From Mangrovibacillus cuniculi (GTDB lineage: Bacteria; Bacillota; Bacilli; Bacillales; R1DC41), in NCBI RefSeq assembly GCF_015482585.1, contig NZ_CP049742.1:2511001-2575000 (forward strand): 64,000 bases of DNA, read 5' to 3'. The translations under genes were made by a program, and so were the position numbers. The notes under the pieces are model-generated. The model was not told the origin of the DNA. It was given only the letters and a program-made list of their open reading frames with translations, and did no database searches. Each line of letters begins with the position of its first letter. The first letter of the stretch is position 1. Positions 4,281 to 53,800 of this stretch are shown here, piece after piece.

Positions 4281-4560
4281 CGTGATCACGCGTTATTTTA
4301 TTAACGGGTGCTCTACCTCTCTTTTACAACTTCTTGACCGCACGTTATCTCCTTAACGGGTGCTCTACTCTCCCTCTCCGCCTTCTTGAACGCACGTTGT
4401 CTCCTTAACGGGTGCTCTACTCTCCTTCTGCCCCTTCTTGAACGCACGTTACATCCTTAACGTGTGCTCTGCTACTACTTCTCACCTTTTTGAGAACTCA
4501 TTACATTGTAACTGTGTACTCCACTCCTCCTCTTCACACACTTCTTGCCACAAGTTATTA
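4281..4560. repeat. Tandem dyad array, family R1, copy a (six units of 52 bp)
   Basis: Anchor positions of the CACGTTA-like motif fall at 4289, 4341, 4393, 4445, 4497 and about 4549, exactly 52 bp apart. Each unit is an inverted repeat (for example GCACGTTA, six bases, TAACGGGTGC) followed by a C/T-rich spacer ending CTTCTTGAAC. Units diverge toward the right end. The same family recurs at 23,036-23,362. No gene is supported here. Confidence 0.85.
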
Positions 4561-4563
4561 GGA

Positions 4564-4626
4564 GACTCATCTAAGAACAGGCCACATCACGTGGCCAACG
4601 ATGAGTTGTTGCTGTTCACGCAACAA
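4564..4626 (-). repeat. Terminator-linked two-hairpin element, copy A
   Basis: Read on the minus strand, it begins in the T-tract of the speB terminator. A small hairpin (TGTTGC with GCAACA) comes first. An outer stem CTCATC/GATGAG then encloses a hairpin GGCCAC-ATCAC-GTGGCC. Three other copies share this architecture (9178, 13,060 and 53,086) with compensating base changes. Confidence 0.7.
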
Positions 4627-4628
4627 AA

Positions 4629-4665
4629 AAAGCCCAGAAAGTAGTCAATCTTCTTTCTGGGCTTT
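4629..4665 (-). terminator. Intrinsic terminator of speE-speB
   Basis: A 13-bp stem (AAAGCCCAGAAAG at 4629-4641 with its complement at 4653-4665) runs into a T-tract on the minus strand, just past the speB stop codon. Confidence 0.85.
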
Positions 4666-4671
4666 GCTCTA

Positions 4672-5556
4672 TTATTTCTTTGTTGTCATTGTATACCCTA
4701 AAATCATCTCACGAATAAGCTTAGAAGCTGTATTCGCTGTTTGCTCAGATGCATCATAGATTGGCGCTACTTCTACTAAGTCTGCTCCAACTACTTGTAC
4801 ATCAGAACGAGAGATAGCATGAATTGATGCTAGTAATTCACGAGATGTAATACCGCCGCAATCCACTGTTCCAGTTCCTGGTGCATGTGCCGGGTCTAAC
4901 ACGTCTATGTCGATTGTTACGTATACAGGACGACCAGCTAATGTAGGTAAAATCTCTTTCAACGGCTCTAGCACTTCAAATTTAGAGATGTGCATACCGT
5001 TCTCTTTTGCCCATTTGAACTCTTCTTTCATTCCAGAACGAATTCCGAAAGAGTAGACATTTTTAGGACCAATGTGTTCTGCAATTTTACGAATTGGAGT
5101 GGAGTGAGAAAGAGGTTCTCCTTCATAATCCACTCGAAGATCCGTATGTGCATCCATATGGATGATTGCTAGATCAGGATATTTTTTTGCTACGGCTTTC
5201 ATAACTGGCCAAGAAACTAAGTGTTCCCCACCGATTCCAAGTGGCATTTTCCCATGACCTAGGATTTCATCTACGTATGCTTCAATAACATCTAAGCTCT
5301 TTGGCGCGTTACCGAATGGTAGAGGAATATCACCAGCGTCGTAAACAGAAACTTCGTGTAACTCACGGTCTAAATACGCACTGTATTCTTCTAAGCCAAT
5401 AGAAACTTCGCGGATACGAGTGGGACCAAAACGAGAGCCTGGACGGTAGCTTACTGTCCAGTCCATTGGCATGCCGTAAAGTACGACTTCCGCTTCCTCA
5501 AAGTTTTGTTGACTTCCAATAAAGATATTACCCGAGTATGCTTCATCAAAACGCAT
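4672..5556 (-). CDS. speB: Agmatinase
   Basis: A manganese-dependent ureohydrolase that converts agmatine to putrescine and urea, supplying the substrate for SpeE. The metal-binding motifs are intact: GGEHLVSW at residues 109-116, DAHTDLR at 135-141 and DIDVLDPAHAPGTGT near 216-230. At 294 residues it has family length. AAGGAGGACG lies before the ATG, and only 13 bp separate it from the speE stop, so speE-speB form one transcript as in B. subtilis. A different ureohydrolase substrate is possible in principle, but the speE linkage argues for agmatine. Confidence 0.95.
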   Translation of the reverse strand: MRFDEAYSGNIFIGSQQNFEEAEVVLYGMPMDWTVSYRPGSRFGPTRIREVSIGLEEYSAYLDRELHEVSVYDAGDIPLPFGNAPKSLDVIEAYVDEILGHGKMPLGIGGEHLVSWPVMKAVAKKYPDLAIIHMDAHTDLRVDYEGEPLSHSTPIRKIAEHIGPKNVYSFGIRSGMKEEFKWAKENGMHISKFEVLEPLKEILPTLAGRPVYVTIDIDVLDPAHAPGTGTVDCGGITSRELLASIHAISRSDVQVVGADLVEVAPIYDASEQTANTASKLIREMILGYTMTTKK

Positions 5557-8811: not shown

Positions 8812-9140
8812 GAATTTTGACAACCATCCTAGCATTCAGGTGGTGTTCAAATAGCTCATTTTTCAGTTTTGACGCCCTTCTCACTGTCGAGACGGTTCTC
8901 AAATTCCCTACTCTTTACTTTTGACGTCCTTCGCAAGTTCGAGATGGTTCTCAAATTCCCTACTCTTTACTTTTGACGTCCTTCGCAAGTTCGAGACAGC
9001 TCTCAAGTCCCCTACTCTTTACTTTTGACGTCCTTCTCACTGTCGAGATGGTTCTTAAATTCCCTATTCCCCAATTTTGACGTCCTTCTCGAGGTCGAGA
9101 CGGTTCTCAAATTACCCGCTCTCTCATTTTGACGTCCTTA
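8812..9140. repeat. Tandem dyad array, family R2 (seven units of 52 bp)
   Basis: The GACG/GACA of the TTTTGACG motif falls at 8819, 8871, 8923, 8975, 9027, 9079 and 9131, so the period is exactly 52 bp. Each unit can fold with outer arms TTTGA/TCAAA and inner arms CCTTCTC/GAGACGG, and is followed by a pyrimidine-rich spacer such as TTCCCTACTCTTTAC. The sequence is unrelated to family R1, yet the spacing and layout are identical. It lies between the convergent genes pbpG and ywhD. No gene is supported here. Confidence 0.85.
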
Positions 9141-9177
9141 TTATCAACGTCTGGCGCAACCGCAGACCTTTAAAAGA

Positions 9178-9241
9178 AGACTCAGTTAAAAGCAGGCCAC
9201 ATCACGTGGCCAACACTGAGTTGTTACCAGTCACGTAACAA
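9178..9241 (-). repeat. Terminator-linked two-hairpin element, copy B
   Basis: The arrangement is the same as copy A, read on the minus strand from the ywhD terminator T-tract: TGTTAC/GTAACA hairpin, then outer stem CTCAGT/ACTGAG around GGCCAC-ATCAC-GTGGCC. Both outer stem and small hairpin differ from copy A by paired substitutions. Confidence 0.7.
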
Positions 9242-9245
9242 AAAC

Positions 9246-9282
9246 GAGCCCCTCTCCAGATGTCCGGTCTGGAAAGGGGCTC
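9246..9282 (-). terminator. Intrinsic terminator of ywhC-ywhD
   Basis: A 15-position stem (GAGCCCCTCTCCAGA with TCTGGAAAGGGGCTC, one mismatch) is followed on the minus strand by five T residues. The remaining 130 bp up to ywhD hold nothing I can identify. Confidence 0.85.
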
Positions 9283-9416: not shown

Positions 9417-9926
9417 CTACACACTTAATCCATTCTTTAGCTCATCAGAAGAAAGTTCCCACATTTGCTCGTTATGAGAACGTAAGAATTCTGTTAGTAA
9501 ACCCTTCGACACATCATCCATGTGATCGACCATAATATGACCTTTCATGGACTTATCCATTTTGTTTACATGCTCAGGTAGAGATTTGTAGCCTCTTCGG
9601 ATTTCTCTATTCACACTCATTTCACAAGCCGTTACGCCTCTGTAAAAAGGTCCTTCCATTTTACGATCAACCGTTACCCATACTAACCAGAACGGCTTCG
9701 CTCCAGGAGAATCTTCACGATTCGGTGTAAATTTAATCCCTCTTTCGACTTGACTTCGGGCATGCATAGCACCGATATCAATGAACACACTCTTTTCTTT
9801 AATATCGATAAATACTGGTGAGACATTGTCTAAACTTAACGCACCTACACCAAAGCCACCATGGCCATCTGTTGGATCATTTTTAATAATATTAAAACCT
9901 AGTTTTTGCTTTTTAGAATCTGACAT
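9417..9926 (-). CDS. ywhD: YwhD family protein
   Basis: Conserved soluble Bacillus protein of unknown function, 169 residues. I recognise it from its sequence (start MSDSKKQKLGFNIIKND) and its position between pbpG and ywhC. AGGAGGT lies about 9 bp before the ATG, and only 15 bp separate it from the ywhC stop, so it is the second gene of a ywhC-ywhD unit. No catalytic motif is visible. Confidence 0.85.
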   Translation of the reverse strand: MSDSKKQKLGFNIIKNDPTDGHGGFGVGALSLDNVSPVFIDIKEKSVFIDIGAMHARSQVERGIKFTPNREDSPGAKPFWLVWVTVDRKMEGPFYRGVTACEMSVNREIRRGYKSLPEHVNKMDKSMKGHIMVDHMDDVSKGLLTEFLRSHNEQMWELSSDELKNGLSV

Positions 9927-12869: not shown

Positions 12870-13059
12870 CTTGTTAGTCACTTCCTCTAAATGGTCTTTC
12901 TATCATAGCCAACATGAAAGTAGTCGTCTACCACGAATCGTGTCGAAAATTTTCCTAATTAGCCGCAATGATAGATTTTATGAGACTTTATATTCCTATA
13001 AAAAATTTACGACAAATAGAGAGTCTTGACAACCGCTGAAGACAAAGAAATAGAAAGAG

Positions 13060-13122
13060 ATTCCTCTAAGTGCAGACCACAACACGTGGCTATAGAGGCA
13101 TTGTTTCTATTAACGTAACAAT
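13060..13122 (-). repeat. Terminator-linked two-hairpin element, copy C
   Basis: Most diverged copy. The minus strand reads terminator T-tract, ATTGTT/AACAAT hairpin, then outer stem CCTCTA/TAGAGG enclosing CCAC-AACAC-GTGG. The stem sequences differ from copies A, B and D but still pair. The rest of 12,870-13,163 shows nothing else. Confidence 0.6.
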
Positions 13123-13124
13123 AA

Positions 13125-13157
13125 AAAAATCACCTTATCCAACACGGAAGAGGCGAT
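13125..13157 (-). terminator. Intrinsic terminator of the DUF1450 gene
   Basis: On the minus strand AATCGCCTCTT pairs with AAGGTGATT with wobbles, and seven T residues follow. Confidence 0.6.
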
Positions 13158-13163
13158 TCCTTC

Positions 13164-13388
13164 TTATTTTTTCAGCTTCTGCTTAACTTTTTCCATTAAT
13201 TCTTCTTCTGTCAACGCTGCACATGGACGATTATTGACAAATGCAAATGTCTTCTTTCGTCCTGGTCCACAATAGGACTGACACCCAACATCGATCGGTG
13301 CATCCGGATCAATTTCTTTTAATTTTGGGATGAGTGTCTTTATATTAACAGCTTGGCAATCGTCACAAATACGAAACTCGTTTGCCAC
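13164..13388 (-). CDS. DUF1450 family small Cys-rich protein
   Basis: A 74-residue protein with CxxC at residues 8-11 (CDDC) and further Cys in GCQSYCGPG and PCAAL. The pattern resembles the thioredoxin-like ferredoxin fold of DUF1450 (YuzB-type) proteins, so metal or Fe-S binding is possible. The start is GTG with AAAGGGTG upstream. It is a single gene with its own terminator. Function is unknown. Confidence 0.75.
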
Positions 13389-23035: not shown

Positions 23036-23362
23036 GGAGCTGGATTTGGACTTTACATGTGTTCTAGAACTCACCAACTCCACCTTGAACACTCGTTATT
23101 TCTTTAACATGTGCTCTCCAACTCTCCTACTCCTCCTTGAACACTTGTTATTCCATTAACGTGCGCTCTCCAACTCACCAACTCCACCTTGAACACTCGT
23201 TATTTCTTTAACATGTGCTCTCCAACTCTCCCACTCCTCCTTGAACGCACGTTATTCTTTTAACGTGCGCTCTCCAACTCACCAACTCCTCCTTGAACGC
23301 ACGTTATTCTTTTAACGTGTGCTCTAGTCCCCATCCACTCCATCATGAACACACGTTACCCT
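23036..23362. repeat. Tandem dyad array, family R1, copy b (six to seven units of 52 bp)
   Basis: The CGTTA/TGTTA anchor falls at 23,094, 23,146, 23,198, 23,250, 23,302 and 23,354, exactly 52 bp apart, with a partial unit before. The best unit pairs CGCACGTTA with TAACGTGCG around TTCTTT, followed by the spacer CTCTCCAACTCACCAACTCC. Units alternate between two subtypes (ACACTCGTTA and CGCACGTTA). It lies between pdxK and yojF, and no gene is supported in it. Confidence 0.87.
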
Positions 23363-36984: not shown

Positions 36985-37305
36985 CTTGGCGATTTTGCAG
37001 TTTGTCGGCTACTGCTCCTTGCTCTCATGGCGACTTAACCACTTTGTCGCCTCCTTCCCCTCGATCGCATGGCGACTTTAGCGGTTTGTCGCCTTACTAT
37101 CCTCGCTCACATGGCGACTTTGACGCTTTGCCGCCTTCCTTTCCCCACTCTCATGGCGGCTTTGACGCTTTGCCGCCTTTTTCCCTCTCTTTCACAGCGG
37201 CTTAACCGCTTACGCCGCCTCTTTTCTCTAAGCTAACCAACGGCATAAGCGCTTACGCCGTACAAATAGAGATTCATCTAAGGTGCACAACCGCTTTTGC
37301 ACCAA
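36985..37305. repeat. Tandem dyad array, family R3 (about eight units of 42 bp)
   Basis: Units begin near 36,988, 37,029, 37,071, 37,113, 37,155, 37,196, 37,240 and 37,281, a period of 41-44 bp. Each is a hairpin with arms of five to six bases around a 10-11 base loop. The arms change in a paired way: GGCGAC/GTCGCC, GGCGGC/GCCGCC, GCGGC/GCCGC, ACGGC/GCCGT and GGTGC/GCACC. Loops keep GCTT or CGCTT. Spacers are C/T-rich and often end CTCTCATG. No protein is supported here. Confidence 0.85.
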
Positions 37306-44054: not shown

Positions 44055-44190
44055 GAGAACACCCCCTATACTAGGACTAATAAACGTGGTAAAACTACAT
44101 ATATTTTACCATAGAAGAAGATTTATACTATCTAATCCTTATGAGGTCCGACAAAATACTTCATGAAGAACTTTTTTACGTAAGTATGCT

Positions 44191-44430
44191 ACACTTTTTC
44201 TGAGTTCTGCTCACTTTTTCTGAGTTCTGCTCACTTTTTCTGAGTTCTGCTCACTTTTTCTGAGTTCTGCTCACTTTTTCTGAGTTCTGCTCACTTTTTC
44301 TGAGTTCTGCTCACTTTTTCTGAGTTCTGCTCACTTTTTCTGAGTTCTGCTCACTTTTTCTGAGTTCTGCTCACTTTTTCTGAGTTCTGCTCACTTTTTC
44401 TGAGTTCTGCTCACTTTTTCTGAGTTCTGC
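44191..44430. repeat. Near-perfect tandem repeat, 12 units of 20 bp (R4)
   Basis: The unit TCACTTTTTCTGAGTTCTGC is repeated twelve times with no change except the first base of the first unit. It lies between the divergent GGDEF-EAL and antiporter genes. The last half-unit is the base of the hairpin at 44,423-44,477. Confidence 0.97.
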
Positions 44431-44477
44431 TTTGCAACATAGGAAAGTACCACTTCCCTATGTTGCAAAGCAGAACT
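44423..44477 (+). promoter_or_regulatory. Long hairpin at the end of the 20-bp array, antiporter leader
   Basis: A perfect 21-bp inverted repeat: AGTTCTGCTTTGCAACATAG plus G at 44,423-44,443 pairs with 44,457-44,477. The inner bases AAAGT and ACTT extend the pairing. It stops 39 bp before the antiporter ATG and is not followed by a T-run. Confidence 0.85.
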
Positions 44478-51010: not shown

Positions 51011-52672
51011 ATGGAGAAAGTTTGGTGGAAAGAAGCAGTAGGTTATCAAATTTACCCTCGTAGTTTCCAAGATTCCAATGGGGACGGAATTGGAGATTTA
51101 CGCGGTATTATTAATCGTTTAGATTACGTAAAGGAATTAGGTGTAGATGTCATTTGGATCTGTCCGATGTATAAGTCTCCTAATGACGACAACGGATATG
51201 ATATTTCTGACTATCAAGATATTATGGAAGACTTCGGTAACATGCAGGACTTTGATGATTTATTAACAGAAGTTCATAAGCGCGACATGAAGCTAATCAT
51301 TGATCTAGTGTTAAACCATACATCTGATGAGCATCCTTGGTTCATTGAGTCTCGTGAATCAAAAGATAATCCGAAACGTGACTGGTATATTTGGAAAGAT
51401 GCAAAAGACGGTAAAGAGCCAAACAACTGGGAGAGTATCTTCAATGGCTCTGCTTGGCAATATGATGAAAAAACGGATCAGTACTATCTACATGTTTTCT
51501 CTACGAAACAACCAGACTTAAACTGGGAAAATGGTGAAGTGCGTGAAGCGCTATACGATACAGTAAACTGGTGGTTAGATAAGGGAATTGACGGATTCCG
51601 TATTGATGCTATTTCTCATATCAAAAAGCGTCCTGGTTTCCCTGACATGCCGAACCCTGATAAGAAGAAATATGTGTCTTCCTTTGACATGCATATGAAC
51701 CAAGAAGGCATTCATGAGTTCTTGGGTGAGTTTAAAGAAAAGACATACGCTAACTATGATGTTATGACTGTTGGAGAAGCAAATGGCGTTTCTATAGACG
51801 AAGCGGACCTTTGGGTAGGAGCAGAAAATGGTAAGATGGATATGATCTTCCAATTTGAGCACCTTGGACTATGGGATGTAGAAAGCGACCGCCAACTTGA
51901 CATCGTTGGTTTGAAGACTGTCTTAACAAGATGGCAAAAAGGCTTAGAAAATGCTGGCTGGAATGCATTATTTATTGAGAACCACGATAAGCCACGTGTT
52001 GTTTCTACTTGGGGTAATGACGGTCAGTACTGGAGAGAAAGTGCAACGAGTATGGCTGCAATGTACTTCTTAATGCAAGGTACTCCGTTCATTTATCAAG
52101 GACAAGAAATTGGTATGACAAACGTACAATTTGAATCTCTTGAAGATTATGATGATGTAGCAGTGAAAAACTTATACCGTGCGAAACTAGAAGACGGATT
52201 AAGCCACGAAGAAATCATGGATATCATCTGGGCTTCTTCTCGAGACAACAGTCGTACACCAATGCAGTGGTCAGCGGAAGCTAACGCAGGTTTCACAACA
52301 GGTACTCCTTGGATGAAACTAAATCCAAACTTTGTGGACATCAACGTAGAAGTACAAGAAAAAGACGAAAATTCTATCTTGAATTTCTATAAAAAGATGA
52401 TCCGCATCAAGAAAGAGAACGATATTTTCACGTATGGTGATTATGATCTAATCTTAGAAAAAGACGAGCAAATCTATGCTTACACTCGTACACTAGGCGA
52501 CCAAAAAATTGTAGTAATTGCCAATTTAACTGGTGAGCAAGCTACATTTGAAGAAGAAGGTTTTGCCTTATCTTCTGATAATCTTCTATTAAATAACTAT
52601 GAAGTGTCTAAGCATGAATATGCAACAACTCTTAAGCTTCAACCTTTTGAAGCTCGTGTTTACTTCGTATAA
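51011..52672 (+). CDS. malL: Alpha-glucosidase / oligo-1,6-glucosidase (GH13)
   Basis: Cytoplasmic GH13 enzyme of 553 residues that hydrolyses maltose, isomaltose or their phosphorylated or oligomeric forms. The four conserved regions are present: DLVLNHTS near 99, GFRIDAISHIKK near 195 (nucleophile Asp), VGEANG near 254 (Glu) and ENHDKPRVVS near 322. GTAAGGAGTG precedes the ATG. The operator shared with the PTS gene downstream suggests that the enzyme acts on the sugar that PTS imports. Confidence 0.93.
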   Translation: MEKVWWKEAVGYQIYPRSFQDSNGDGIGDLRGIINRLDYVKELGVDVIWICPMYKSPNDDNGYDISDYQDIMEDFGNMQDFDDLLTEVHKRDMKLIIDLVLNHTSDEHPWFIESRESKDNPKRDWYIWKDAKDGKEPNNWESIFNGSAWQYDEKTDQYYLHVFSTKQPDLNWENGEVREALYDTVNWWLDKGIDGFRIDAISHIKKRPGFPDMPNPDKKKYVSSFDMHMNQEGIHEFLGEFKEKTYANYDVMTVGEANGVSIDEADLWVGAENGKMDMIFQFEHLGLWDVESDRQLDIVGLKTVLTRWQKGLENAGWNALFIENHDKPRVVSTWGNDGQYWRESATSMAAMYFLMQGTPFIYQGQEIGMTNVQFESLEDYDDVAVKNLYRAKLEDGLSHEEIMDIIWASSRDNSRTPMQWSAEANAGFTTGTPWMKLNPNFVDINVEVQEKDENSILNFYKKMIRIKKENDIFTYGDYDLILEKDEQIYAYTRTLGDQKIVVIANLTGEQATFEEEGFALSSDNLLLNNYEVSKHEYATTLKLQPFEARVYFV

Positions 52673-52984: not shown

Positions 52985-53090
52985 TTGCAGGATCTAGTCA
53001 ACCCTGCAACCCTTTTATCCTACTACCCCTAGGATATCTTTTGCGTACAGCGGCCGTTTGATCTGGCACGGATCAAACGGTCCTTTTTGT
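52985..53090 (+). ncRNA. Candidate small regulatory RNA with exposed CCCC loop
   Basis: Three successive hairpins follow a TATAAT box by 4-5 bp. The first is TTGCAGG/CCTGCAA at 52,985-53,009. The second is ATCCTA/TAGGAT with loop CTACCCC at 53,017-53,035. The third is a strong terminator, GGCCGTTTGATC with GATCAAACGGTCC plus five T residues, to 53,088. There is no open frame with a ribosome-binding site. The C-rich loop could pair with Shine-Dalgarno sequences, as in RoxS/FsrA-type RNAs, but it is not recognisably either of those. Confidence 0.6.
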
Positions 53091-53150
53091 TACGTGACCA
53101 GTAACAACTCATCGTTAGCCACGTGATGTGGCTTGCTTTTAGATGAGTCT
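53086..53150 (+). repeat. Terminator-linked two-hairpin element, copy D
   Basis: It begins in the T-tract of the small-RNA terminator: hairpin GTTAC/GTAAC, then outer stem CTCATC/GATGAG enclosing AGCCAC-GTGAT-GTGGCT. It is the only copy on the plus strand. It ends two bases before the stop codon of the convergent HAD gene. Confidence 0.7.
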
Positions 53151-53152
53151 CC

Positions 53153-53800
53153 TCACTCCATTGCCTTTCGCAACTTCTCTAACGTAATCTCTCTAAAATC
53201 CTTCACATGTACATTCGCTCTACTTAAATGCTCCTCGTGACCAATTCCAACAGCAACCATAGAAGTATCCAAAATCCCCGTTAATCCCGCTTCACCATCT
53301 TCAAACGCAAAACAGTTTTCAGGTGCGATATTTATTGCTTTTGCAGCTGCAAGAAATATGTCAGGTGCTGGTTTTCCGTTTTGGACCTTTTTAGGATCAA
53401 TAATAGCTTGAAAAAGATGCTTAATCTGTAATTTCTCTAACACGTAATGCGCATTGGAACTAGAAGAAGCAAGCGCTATAGGATACCCTCGATCATAAAT
53501 AGCCAATAGAAATTCTTCTGCACCAGGAATCATGTTTTCTTTCGTTAAAGTAGAAAGGTATCGTTGATAGTATTGGTTCCTAACTTCACCAAGCGATTTT
53601 AGTTCTTCTTCTGAATAGGACTTATTGGAGCGTCTCGCTAACTCTTTCATTAGCGTCAGTCTAGGTACTCCTTGATAGCGATAGTTATCTTCTTCTGAAA
53701 AAGAGACTTCCATTCTATCTGTGATTTCTTTTGTAGCTAAATAATAGTAATGGACTGTGTCCACAAGAACTCCATCTAAATCAAAGATAAACCCGAACAT
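53153..53800 (-). CDS. Beta-phosphoglucomutase-like HAD enzyme
   Basis: HAD subfamily IA, 215 residues. Motif I FIFDLDGVLVDTVHYYYLA has the two Asp and the VDT cap signature of beta-phosphoglucomutases. Motif II is ALASSSSNA, motif III GKPAPDIF and motif IV FEDGEAGL. The start is the ATG at 53,800 after AAGGAGGG. Its place between the glucosidase and the alpha-glucoside PTS fits a role in beta-glucose-1-phosphate use, though no maltose phosphorylase gene is in view. Confidence 0.8.
   Translation of the reverse strand: MFGFIFDLDGVLVDTVHYYYLATKEITDRMEVSFSEEDNYRYQGVPRLTLMKELARRSNKSYSEEELKSLGEVRNQYYQRYLSTLTKENMIPGAEEFLLAIYDRGYPIALASSSSNAHYVLEKLQIKHLFQAIIDPKKVQNGKPAPDIFLAAAKAINIAPENCFAFEDGEAGLTGILDTSMVAVGIGHEEHLSRANVHVKDFREITLEKLRKAME

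Follow-up and report, generated by a model that had tools for sequence, protein, structure and literature searches.

A Bacillaceae-1-type repeat behind hairpin-plus-T sites in Mangrovibacillus cuniculi, probably a non-autonomous mobile DNA unit

The element in the window

The DNA analysed here, referred to as the window, is a stretch of 64,000 nucleotides of the Mangrovibacillus cuniculi genome (contig NZ_CP049742.1, positions 2,511,001 to 2,575,000), and it contains four copies of a short two-hairpin element, each behind the hairpin of an intrinsic terminator. Copy 4 is on the forward strand (53084..53156; 92.7 bits with the family model R1) and comprises, in this order, a T-run, the hairpin P1, the outer stem P2, the inner hairpin P3 and a TCTCC end; the terminator hairpin on its 5' side, read from the sequence, spans 53052..53083 on the same strand and is followed by the T-run at 53084-53088, and the closest listed open frame of at least 60 aa upstream on that strand is an alpha-amylase, which ends at 52,672. 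The other three copies are on the reverse strand, 3' of terminator hairpins also read from the sequence, with the genes assigned by Pfam: copy 1 (4557..4629; 95.8 bits with R1) follows the terminator (4630..4665) of the gene for a SpeB-type arginase-family protein (4672-5556, PF00491); copy 2 (9172..9244; 92.7 bits) that of ywhD (hairpin 9246..9282; gene 9417-9926, PF08741); and copy 3, which is partly decayed (13052..13124; 65.8 bits), that of a DUF1450 gene (hairpin 13128..13158; gene 13164-13388, PF07293). A preliminary description of the window had noted these four copies and named the three genes; R1 recovers exactly the same four at E<=10, and the gene names are correct.

Regarding known families, a default Rfam scan of the window gave no match to RF01690; in a permissive scan this family, Bacillaceae-1, was the one relevant match, and it covered copy 4 at full length on the opposite strand (53089-53158) with 30.5 bits, the cut-off being 35 bits.

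Family size and relation to Bacillaceae-1

The element is about 66 bp long and has 148 copies in the genome of 3.15 Mb. Model R1, built from 25 copies, gave 147 matches among the 150 scored of 789 candidates; a direct search of 20 evenly spaced 20-kb stretches found 26 copies at E<=5e-6, 25 of which were already among the R1 matches, so that the list is nearly complete at that score level and the one new copy brings the total to 148. Weaker, decayed remnants exist besides these. The usable copies number 147, the copy at 332,220 having been dropped, and some counts below refer to the 137 that are left after the further removal of 10 "b-type" copies, which lie inside a larger repeat; the stem cells of the b-type copies were not used. 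The terminator, gene and cassette tests relied on home-made scripts with thresholds of our choice; by crude gene calls, 20 of the 137 copies overlap an open frame.

Across the genome, RF01690 matched 43 places, all over model positions 1-67, with 24 above the cut-off (150 of 281 candidates scored); the cut-off is thus reached by the family in this genome and not by every copy, those of the window being below it or unreported. The element is a divergent, lineage-specific form of the Bacillaceae-1 motif. This motif was listed in 2010 by Weinberg as an RNA that is probably not cis-regulatory (PMC2864571), eight Bacillaceae-1 structures were newly annotated in B. subtilis by BSGatlas (PMC8208703), and the motif is named in the abstract of PMC5764928. 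Some of what is described here may be covered already in Gonzalez-Tortuero et al. 2022 (Gene 841:146756); in the open-access literature nothing on a terminator-linked Bacillaceae-1 was found.

Structure and covariation

P1 is a hairpin of 6 bp, mostly TGTTAC/GTAACA; P2 is an outer stem of 7 bp that encloses P3, a second hairpin of 6 bp, mostly NNCCAC/GTGGNN. In P1 and P3 alike, the motif most often seen in the loop is CGTGA. In the first 25 copies, 95.6% of 475 cells pair, two-sided changes occur at 15 pairs and in 78 cells, and the covariation score is 0.479; for each of these measures, none of 500 shuffles was as high, whereas the number of further pair types did not exceed shuffles (330/500). 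When the pairing of these copies was slid, the paired fraction dropped to 28-49%. A second set of 84 distinct rows, which has at least one copy in common with the first, includes two fragments and, being fitted to the model, is biased towards it, gave 90.7% of 1554 cells paired and 132 two-sided cells; both values and the score beat 500 of 500 shuffles, the further pair types were matched by 4/500, and in its count of pairs with any two-sided change the set did not rise above the shuffles (114/500). The paired positions that had been proposed from the four copies of the window are therefore supported in both larger alignments.

The stems change mostly by subfamily, with P2 as ATC/GAT, GGT/ACC, AGT/ACT or CGT/ACG and the top pairs of P3 of the GG/CC, GA/TC or AG/CT type. 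A second subtype, with the stem CTTCTGC/GCAGAAG, has 10 copies nested in a larger palindromic repeat (loci L009-L011, L017-L021 and L023).

Ends and target site

Read in the direction of the upstream gene, a copy follows a terminator stem and consists of the T-run, P1, P2 enclosing P3, and then TNTCCTTA. Its ends are sharp: over 130 copies, the information content is about that of the background to the left of the T-run and to the right of TNTCCTTA, and the flanks of the copies are unrelated to one another; the right flank has a weak T excess, which does not decide whether a T-run is left over there.

A T-run of at least three T starts 132 of the 147 usable copies, and a strong stem (home-made score of at least 16 and at least 3 G-C pairs, in the 55 bases tested) stands directly before it in 111 of these 132, compared with 77/756 element-free T5G runs and 15/500 random positions. 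The link to terminators, which the preliminary description had seen in four copies, accordingly extends over the genome. As for the 15 copies lacking a T-run, 10 are nested b-type copies, 3 are in tandem, 1 is decayed and 1 lies at the start of the contig; this last one (55-125) has a visible stem and T-run and missed the T-run test because it lacked flank. Several of the 21 copies with a weak stem follow a dispersed palindromic repeat with arms that extend past the 55 bases tested. The reverse orientation against a terminator was seen in none of 137 copies by a simple test.

The dispersed palindromic repeat ends in ...CGCGCGCC...GCTTTT and occupies 27 distinct sites in the DNA retrieved: the element follows exactly after GCTTTT at 6 of them, a 5'-truncated element follows GCTTTTCT, two bases further on, at 2, and 19 are empty; this DNA is enriched for element flanks, hence 6/27 is not a rate for the genome, and the sites are copies of a repeat and not alleles of one site. 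The 5S genes at 2,728,722 and 2,750,000, considered as a filled and an empty site, have near-identical terminators, but the pair was rejected, as one of them carries the element and the other an apparent decayed one.

Regarding genes, the element stands behind 10 of 102 gene-linked terminators in a sample of 464 kb. According to crude gene calls, 113/137 copies share the strand of the upstream gene, whose stop codon is at a median distance of 45 bp, and the next gene is co-directional in 100/137 and convergent in 33/137, so that the element is not tied to convergent gene ends.

Orientation relative to the replication fork

When a gene is co-directional with the fork, its coding strand is the lagging-strand template. 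The elements are co-oriented with the fork in 124, 122 or 120 of 137 cases under three choices of origin and terminus, the first of which was fitted to the elements and the other two set by us with regard to GC skew and gene direction; in the sampled stretches only, the count is 23/26. Among element-free gene-linked terminators, used as the control, 58/92 are co-oriented (p 7e-7, 5e-6 and 2e-5). The excess is smaller against genes, with 268/353 co-oriented (p 0.0002, 0.001 and 0.004), and could partly reflect gene class. Co-orientation with the fork places the hairpin, the T-run and the element on the strand that is exposed as a single strand.

The element in relatives

A search of 61 genomes of the order, with stricter filters, found matches at 1e-4 in 11 of them, M. 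cuniculi included; the others have 1-16 copies, and none of the other genomes searched belongs to the family of M. cuniculi. The relatives yielded 46 distinct copies among at most 80 candidates scored per genome. Their flanks were studied in 42 copies, 40 of the 46 plus two from SpeB loci, a match of 25.3 bits at locus L130 being left out: a terminator-like stem stands at the left end of 1/42, against 111/132 T-run copies in M. cuniculi, and for 19/42 a loose motif test places the copy within or next to a larger palindromic cassette. The b-type copies of M. cuniculi are still nested inside a larger repeat, and we infer from this that nesting came first, the terminator-homing form having originated in the M. 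cuniculi lineage. A similar nesting is present in one relative (G032), inside a tgtctagctccagcgcc...cgcttttct cassette.

The loops differ as well. The relatives have GGA in 37/46 P3 loops and in 27/41 P1 loops (a P1 loop was found in 41 copies); the motif is in both loops in 22 copies, only in P3 in 10, only in P1 in 5 and in neither in 4, and the coupling between the two loops is loose. In M. cuniculi, GGA is absent from both loops in 145/147 copies. That both loops differ between this lineage and its relatives suggests, from the sequences compared, that a single factor may read both hairpins. Most hairpin loops of the relatives (L249-L288) read ACAGGA(C/T)GT or similar, which we take to be close to the CsrA consensus; csrA is present in 57/61 of the genomes searched, with two copies in M. 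cuniculi.

A 24-base P1 pattern, allowing at most 2 mismatches, occurs 105 times in M. cuniculi, and the 396 other genomes of the order together contain three matches; these (L300, L302 and L303) were dismissed as chance, as they score 10.7-14.7 bits and have no second hairpin, and a reversed control pattern gave 2. Viral contigs, searched with one pattern, and plasmids gave no element match. Among the best 80 of 580 SpeB loci from other species, three had a match at E<=1. One match behind speB, in Bacillus sp. V59.32b (L115), was rejected as an orthologous site, since it lies about 130 bp past the terminator, inside an apparent larger palindromic repeat.

Candidate mobilisers

The preliminary description had suggested looking for a transposase with matching ends. 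The genome has a single Y1 (IS200-like) gene, for a protein of 195 residues (genome 2436171-2436755; locus L031, 1234-1821), which is RAYT-like in our judgement, and no sign of a link between it and the element emerged: no more of the element than a remnant of 13.5 bits lies near the gene, and RAYT-like proteins, relatives of this one, occur in 6/11 element-bearing genomes and 32/50 others, hence with no association. Y1 proteins of any kind are present in 11/11 element-bearing and 42/50 other genomes. This protein is thus no more than a candidate mobiliser. The gene adjoins a tandem array of another repeat, with units of about 85 bp (GGCGACTTGCCGTGGGG...; L031, about 1933-2480), and similar repeats occur elsewhere in the genome.

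As for retroelements, neither reverse transcriptase (RVT_1) nor group II intron (RF00029; 150 of 191 candidates scored) has a match in the genome.

Nature of the element

The element forms an abundant repeat family of the Bacillaceae-1 kind that is real, has sharp boundaries, is decayed in part and sits behind hairpin-plus-T sites; for this family, copy number, ends, target, orientation, strand bias, covariation and the broken pairs of many copies are matters of observation. We consider it, with a probability of roughly 65%, to be a non-autonomous mobile DNA unit that inserts in a single orientation behind a hairpin and T-run. Transposition itself, a single-stranded route, a mobiliser acting in trans and recognition through the loops are what we infer from these observations. 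The insertion sites would in practice be intrinsic terminators and the GCTTTT end of the dispersed palindromic repeat; the route would likely be single-stranded DNA at the replication fork, with hairpin, T-run and element on a strand that is preferentially the lagging-strand template; a putative trans-acting factor could read both hairpins, whose loops have the same CGTGA motif; and landing behind terminators would do little harm to the host. Selection on the structure would act mainly in copies able to move, and most inserted copies would decay afterwards. Of the two proposals in the preliminary description, a mobile unit that targets terminators is the better supported, by ends, flanks, orientation, fork bias, decay and the occurrence of the palindromic repeat with and without the element, although the suggested kinship with IS200/IS605 is conjectural, as nothing links the one Y1 gene to the element.

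The second proposal, a selected 3'-end element, would have the folded read-through RNA cut or bound, so that it limits read-through or shapes the 3' end, and its copies spread by recombination. The strict position at the T-run in sense orientation and the strong covariation are in line with it, as are the upstream genes, which are on the same strand and close by, and the stems of the relatives, in which 573 of 590 P2/P3 cells are Watson-Crick, 6 G·T, 3 A·C and 8 other; these are much better kept than the stems here, as in a functional RNA, with wobble cells too few to judge the strand. If an RNA is under selection, G·U is expected to be better tolerated than A·C on the strand of that RNA. In the 130 T-type copies of M. 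cuniculi, however, the stems have 71 G·T and 72 A·C cells, beside 2160 Watson-Crick cells and 167 others, so that an excess of G·U over A·C is absent on either strand, and this weakens the proposal. Broken pairs occur in many copies, 65/102 of the full-length ones having one or more non-standard pairs; the element stands behind only about a tenth of the gene-linked terminators sampled, and it has no tie to the arrangement of the genes. We therefore regard a selected 3'-end element as rather unlikely.

The mode of decay can be followed in the 102 full-length copies, in which 190 rare pair cells are one-sided and 23 are two-sided Watson-Crick, about 5 two-sided being expected by independence. 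Change rates at paired and unpaired positions are 3.4 vs 5.2% for A/T and 5.9 vs 7.0% for G/C. The slightly lower change of paired positions and the 23 two-sided cells against about 5 expected make some retained constraint possible; we read the data as mostly unconstrained decay after insertion, with the constraint on source copies and possibly a weak constraint remaining. The copies are not recent: the median identity to the nearest neighbour is 0.909, and only 2/102 have an identical partner. The missing G·T excess, the decayed copies and the fork-strand bias together favour a mobile unit over a functional RNA.

A small RNA, or an RNA that binds CsrA, is how the family is filed and what one paper suggested for the Bacillaceae-1 reverse complement; this reading has little probability. 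The match of RF01690 to part of the copies and the two csrA genes speak for it, and the GGA loops of the relatives, in an ACAGGA context, resemble CsrA sites as presented in PMC4333381; yet nearly all M. cuniculi copies lack GGA in both loops, the copies are behind a terminator and would thus be transcribed mainly by read-through, and the G·U excess is missing here too. Finally, as a degenerate derivative or a parasite of a retroelement of the group IIC intron type, inserted through reverse splicing or the action of an intron-encoded reverse transcriptase that is now lost, the element would share target and strand preference with bacterial-C introns (PMC8919778), and decayed copies fit a lost mobiliser, but the genome has no RVT_1 or RF00029 match and the fold has no resemblance to domain V visible by eye, which leaves this origin improbable.

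Beyond the mobile unit as such, a wider and more tentative interpretation may be considered, which is possible and, in our view, somewhat doubtful: Bacillaceae-1 might essentially be a mobile element of single-stranded DNA and not an RNA gene, which in this lineage would have changed its loops and their recognition, left the larger palindromic cassette and taken to fork-mediated homing on terminators without reverse transcriptase; the safe-site strategy known from group IIC introns would then have been invented a second time, independently, by a unit of 66 bp.

Comparison with known systems

The relation to Bacillaceae-1 (RF01690) lies in the two hairpins, of identical order and size; the differences are in the loops, CGTGA in M. 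cuniculi and mostly GGA in relatives, and in the position at terminators. The closest functional parallel is that of the group IIC (bacterial-C) introns, which insert immediately after intrinsic terminators and prefer the lagging-strand template (PMC8919778). The M. cuniculi element shares this strand preference and the terminator target (111/132 vs 77/756), but it has about 66 bp, no open frame and no ribozyme, in a genome free of reverse transcriptase and group II matches.

As for REP/BIME sequences and their RAYT proteins (IS200/IS605-like, Y1), the likeness consists in short, high-copy, hairpin-bearing, non-coding units and in the one Y1 gene of the genome; the M. cuniculi element differs in being unlinked to that gene and in its fixed target behind terminators. 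REP/BIME units have a GTAG or CGTC tag beside the palindrome, according to PMC3733652, and these tags are absent, by eye, from both strands of the 102-copy consensus. Bacterial MITEs, of which bcr1 and RUP are given as examples in the same source, are comparable as small, dispersed, non-coding elements with a lineage-specific burst, whereas neither a terminal inverted repeat (in the consensus) nor a target duplication (in the listed copies) was seen here, both judged by eye only.

If the mobile-DNA reading is true, a curated "RNA" family behaves as mobile DNA, at least in the M. cuniculi lineage, and this bears on how covariation in short repeats is to be interpreted. Homing on terminators has already been described for group II introns; a unit of 66 bp that achieves it in a genome without reverse transcriptase would suggest that hairpin-plus-T sites are generally open on the lagging-strand template. 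The element also accounts for about 150 3' intergenic stretches of the genome and offers a testable case for the search of a mobiliser.

Tandem arrays near the element

The preliminary description had mentioned a dyad array beside two copies, and arrays of 52 bp do border two copies of the window. Genome-wide, tandem arrays are near 35/137 elements, some of them being arrays of the element itself, and near 20/140 element-free terminator-like sites, a moderate excess. Short tandem arrays of the element or of its parts, with a spacing of about 72-99 bp, are at genome positions 1818208-1818425, about 843353, 1050750-1050919 and 55-203. In the window, tandem arrays whose period is constant at 52-53 bp lie at 4301-4493, 8867-9139 and 23051-23358, and arrays of this period also occur beside other copies in the genome; others have a period of 42 bp, for example at 37001-37179 of the window, and in both kinds the sequence of the unit varies by locus. 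Finally, 12 repeats of a 20-bp unit, 99% matching, are at 44187-44431 of the window.
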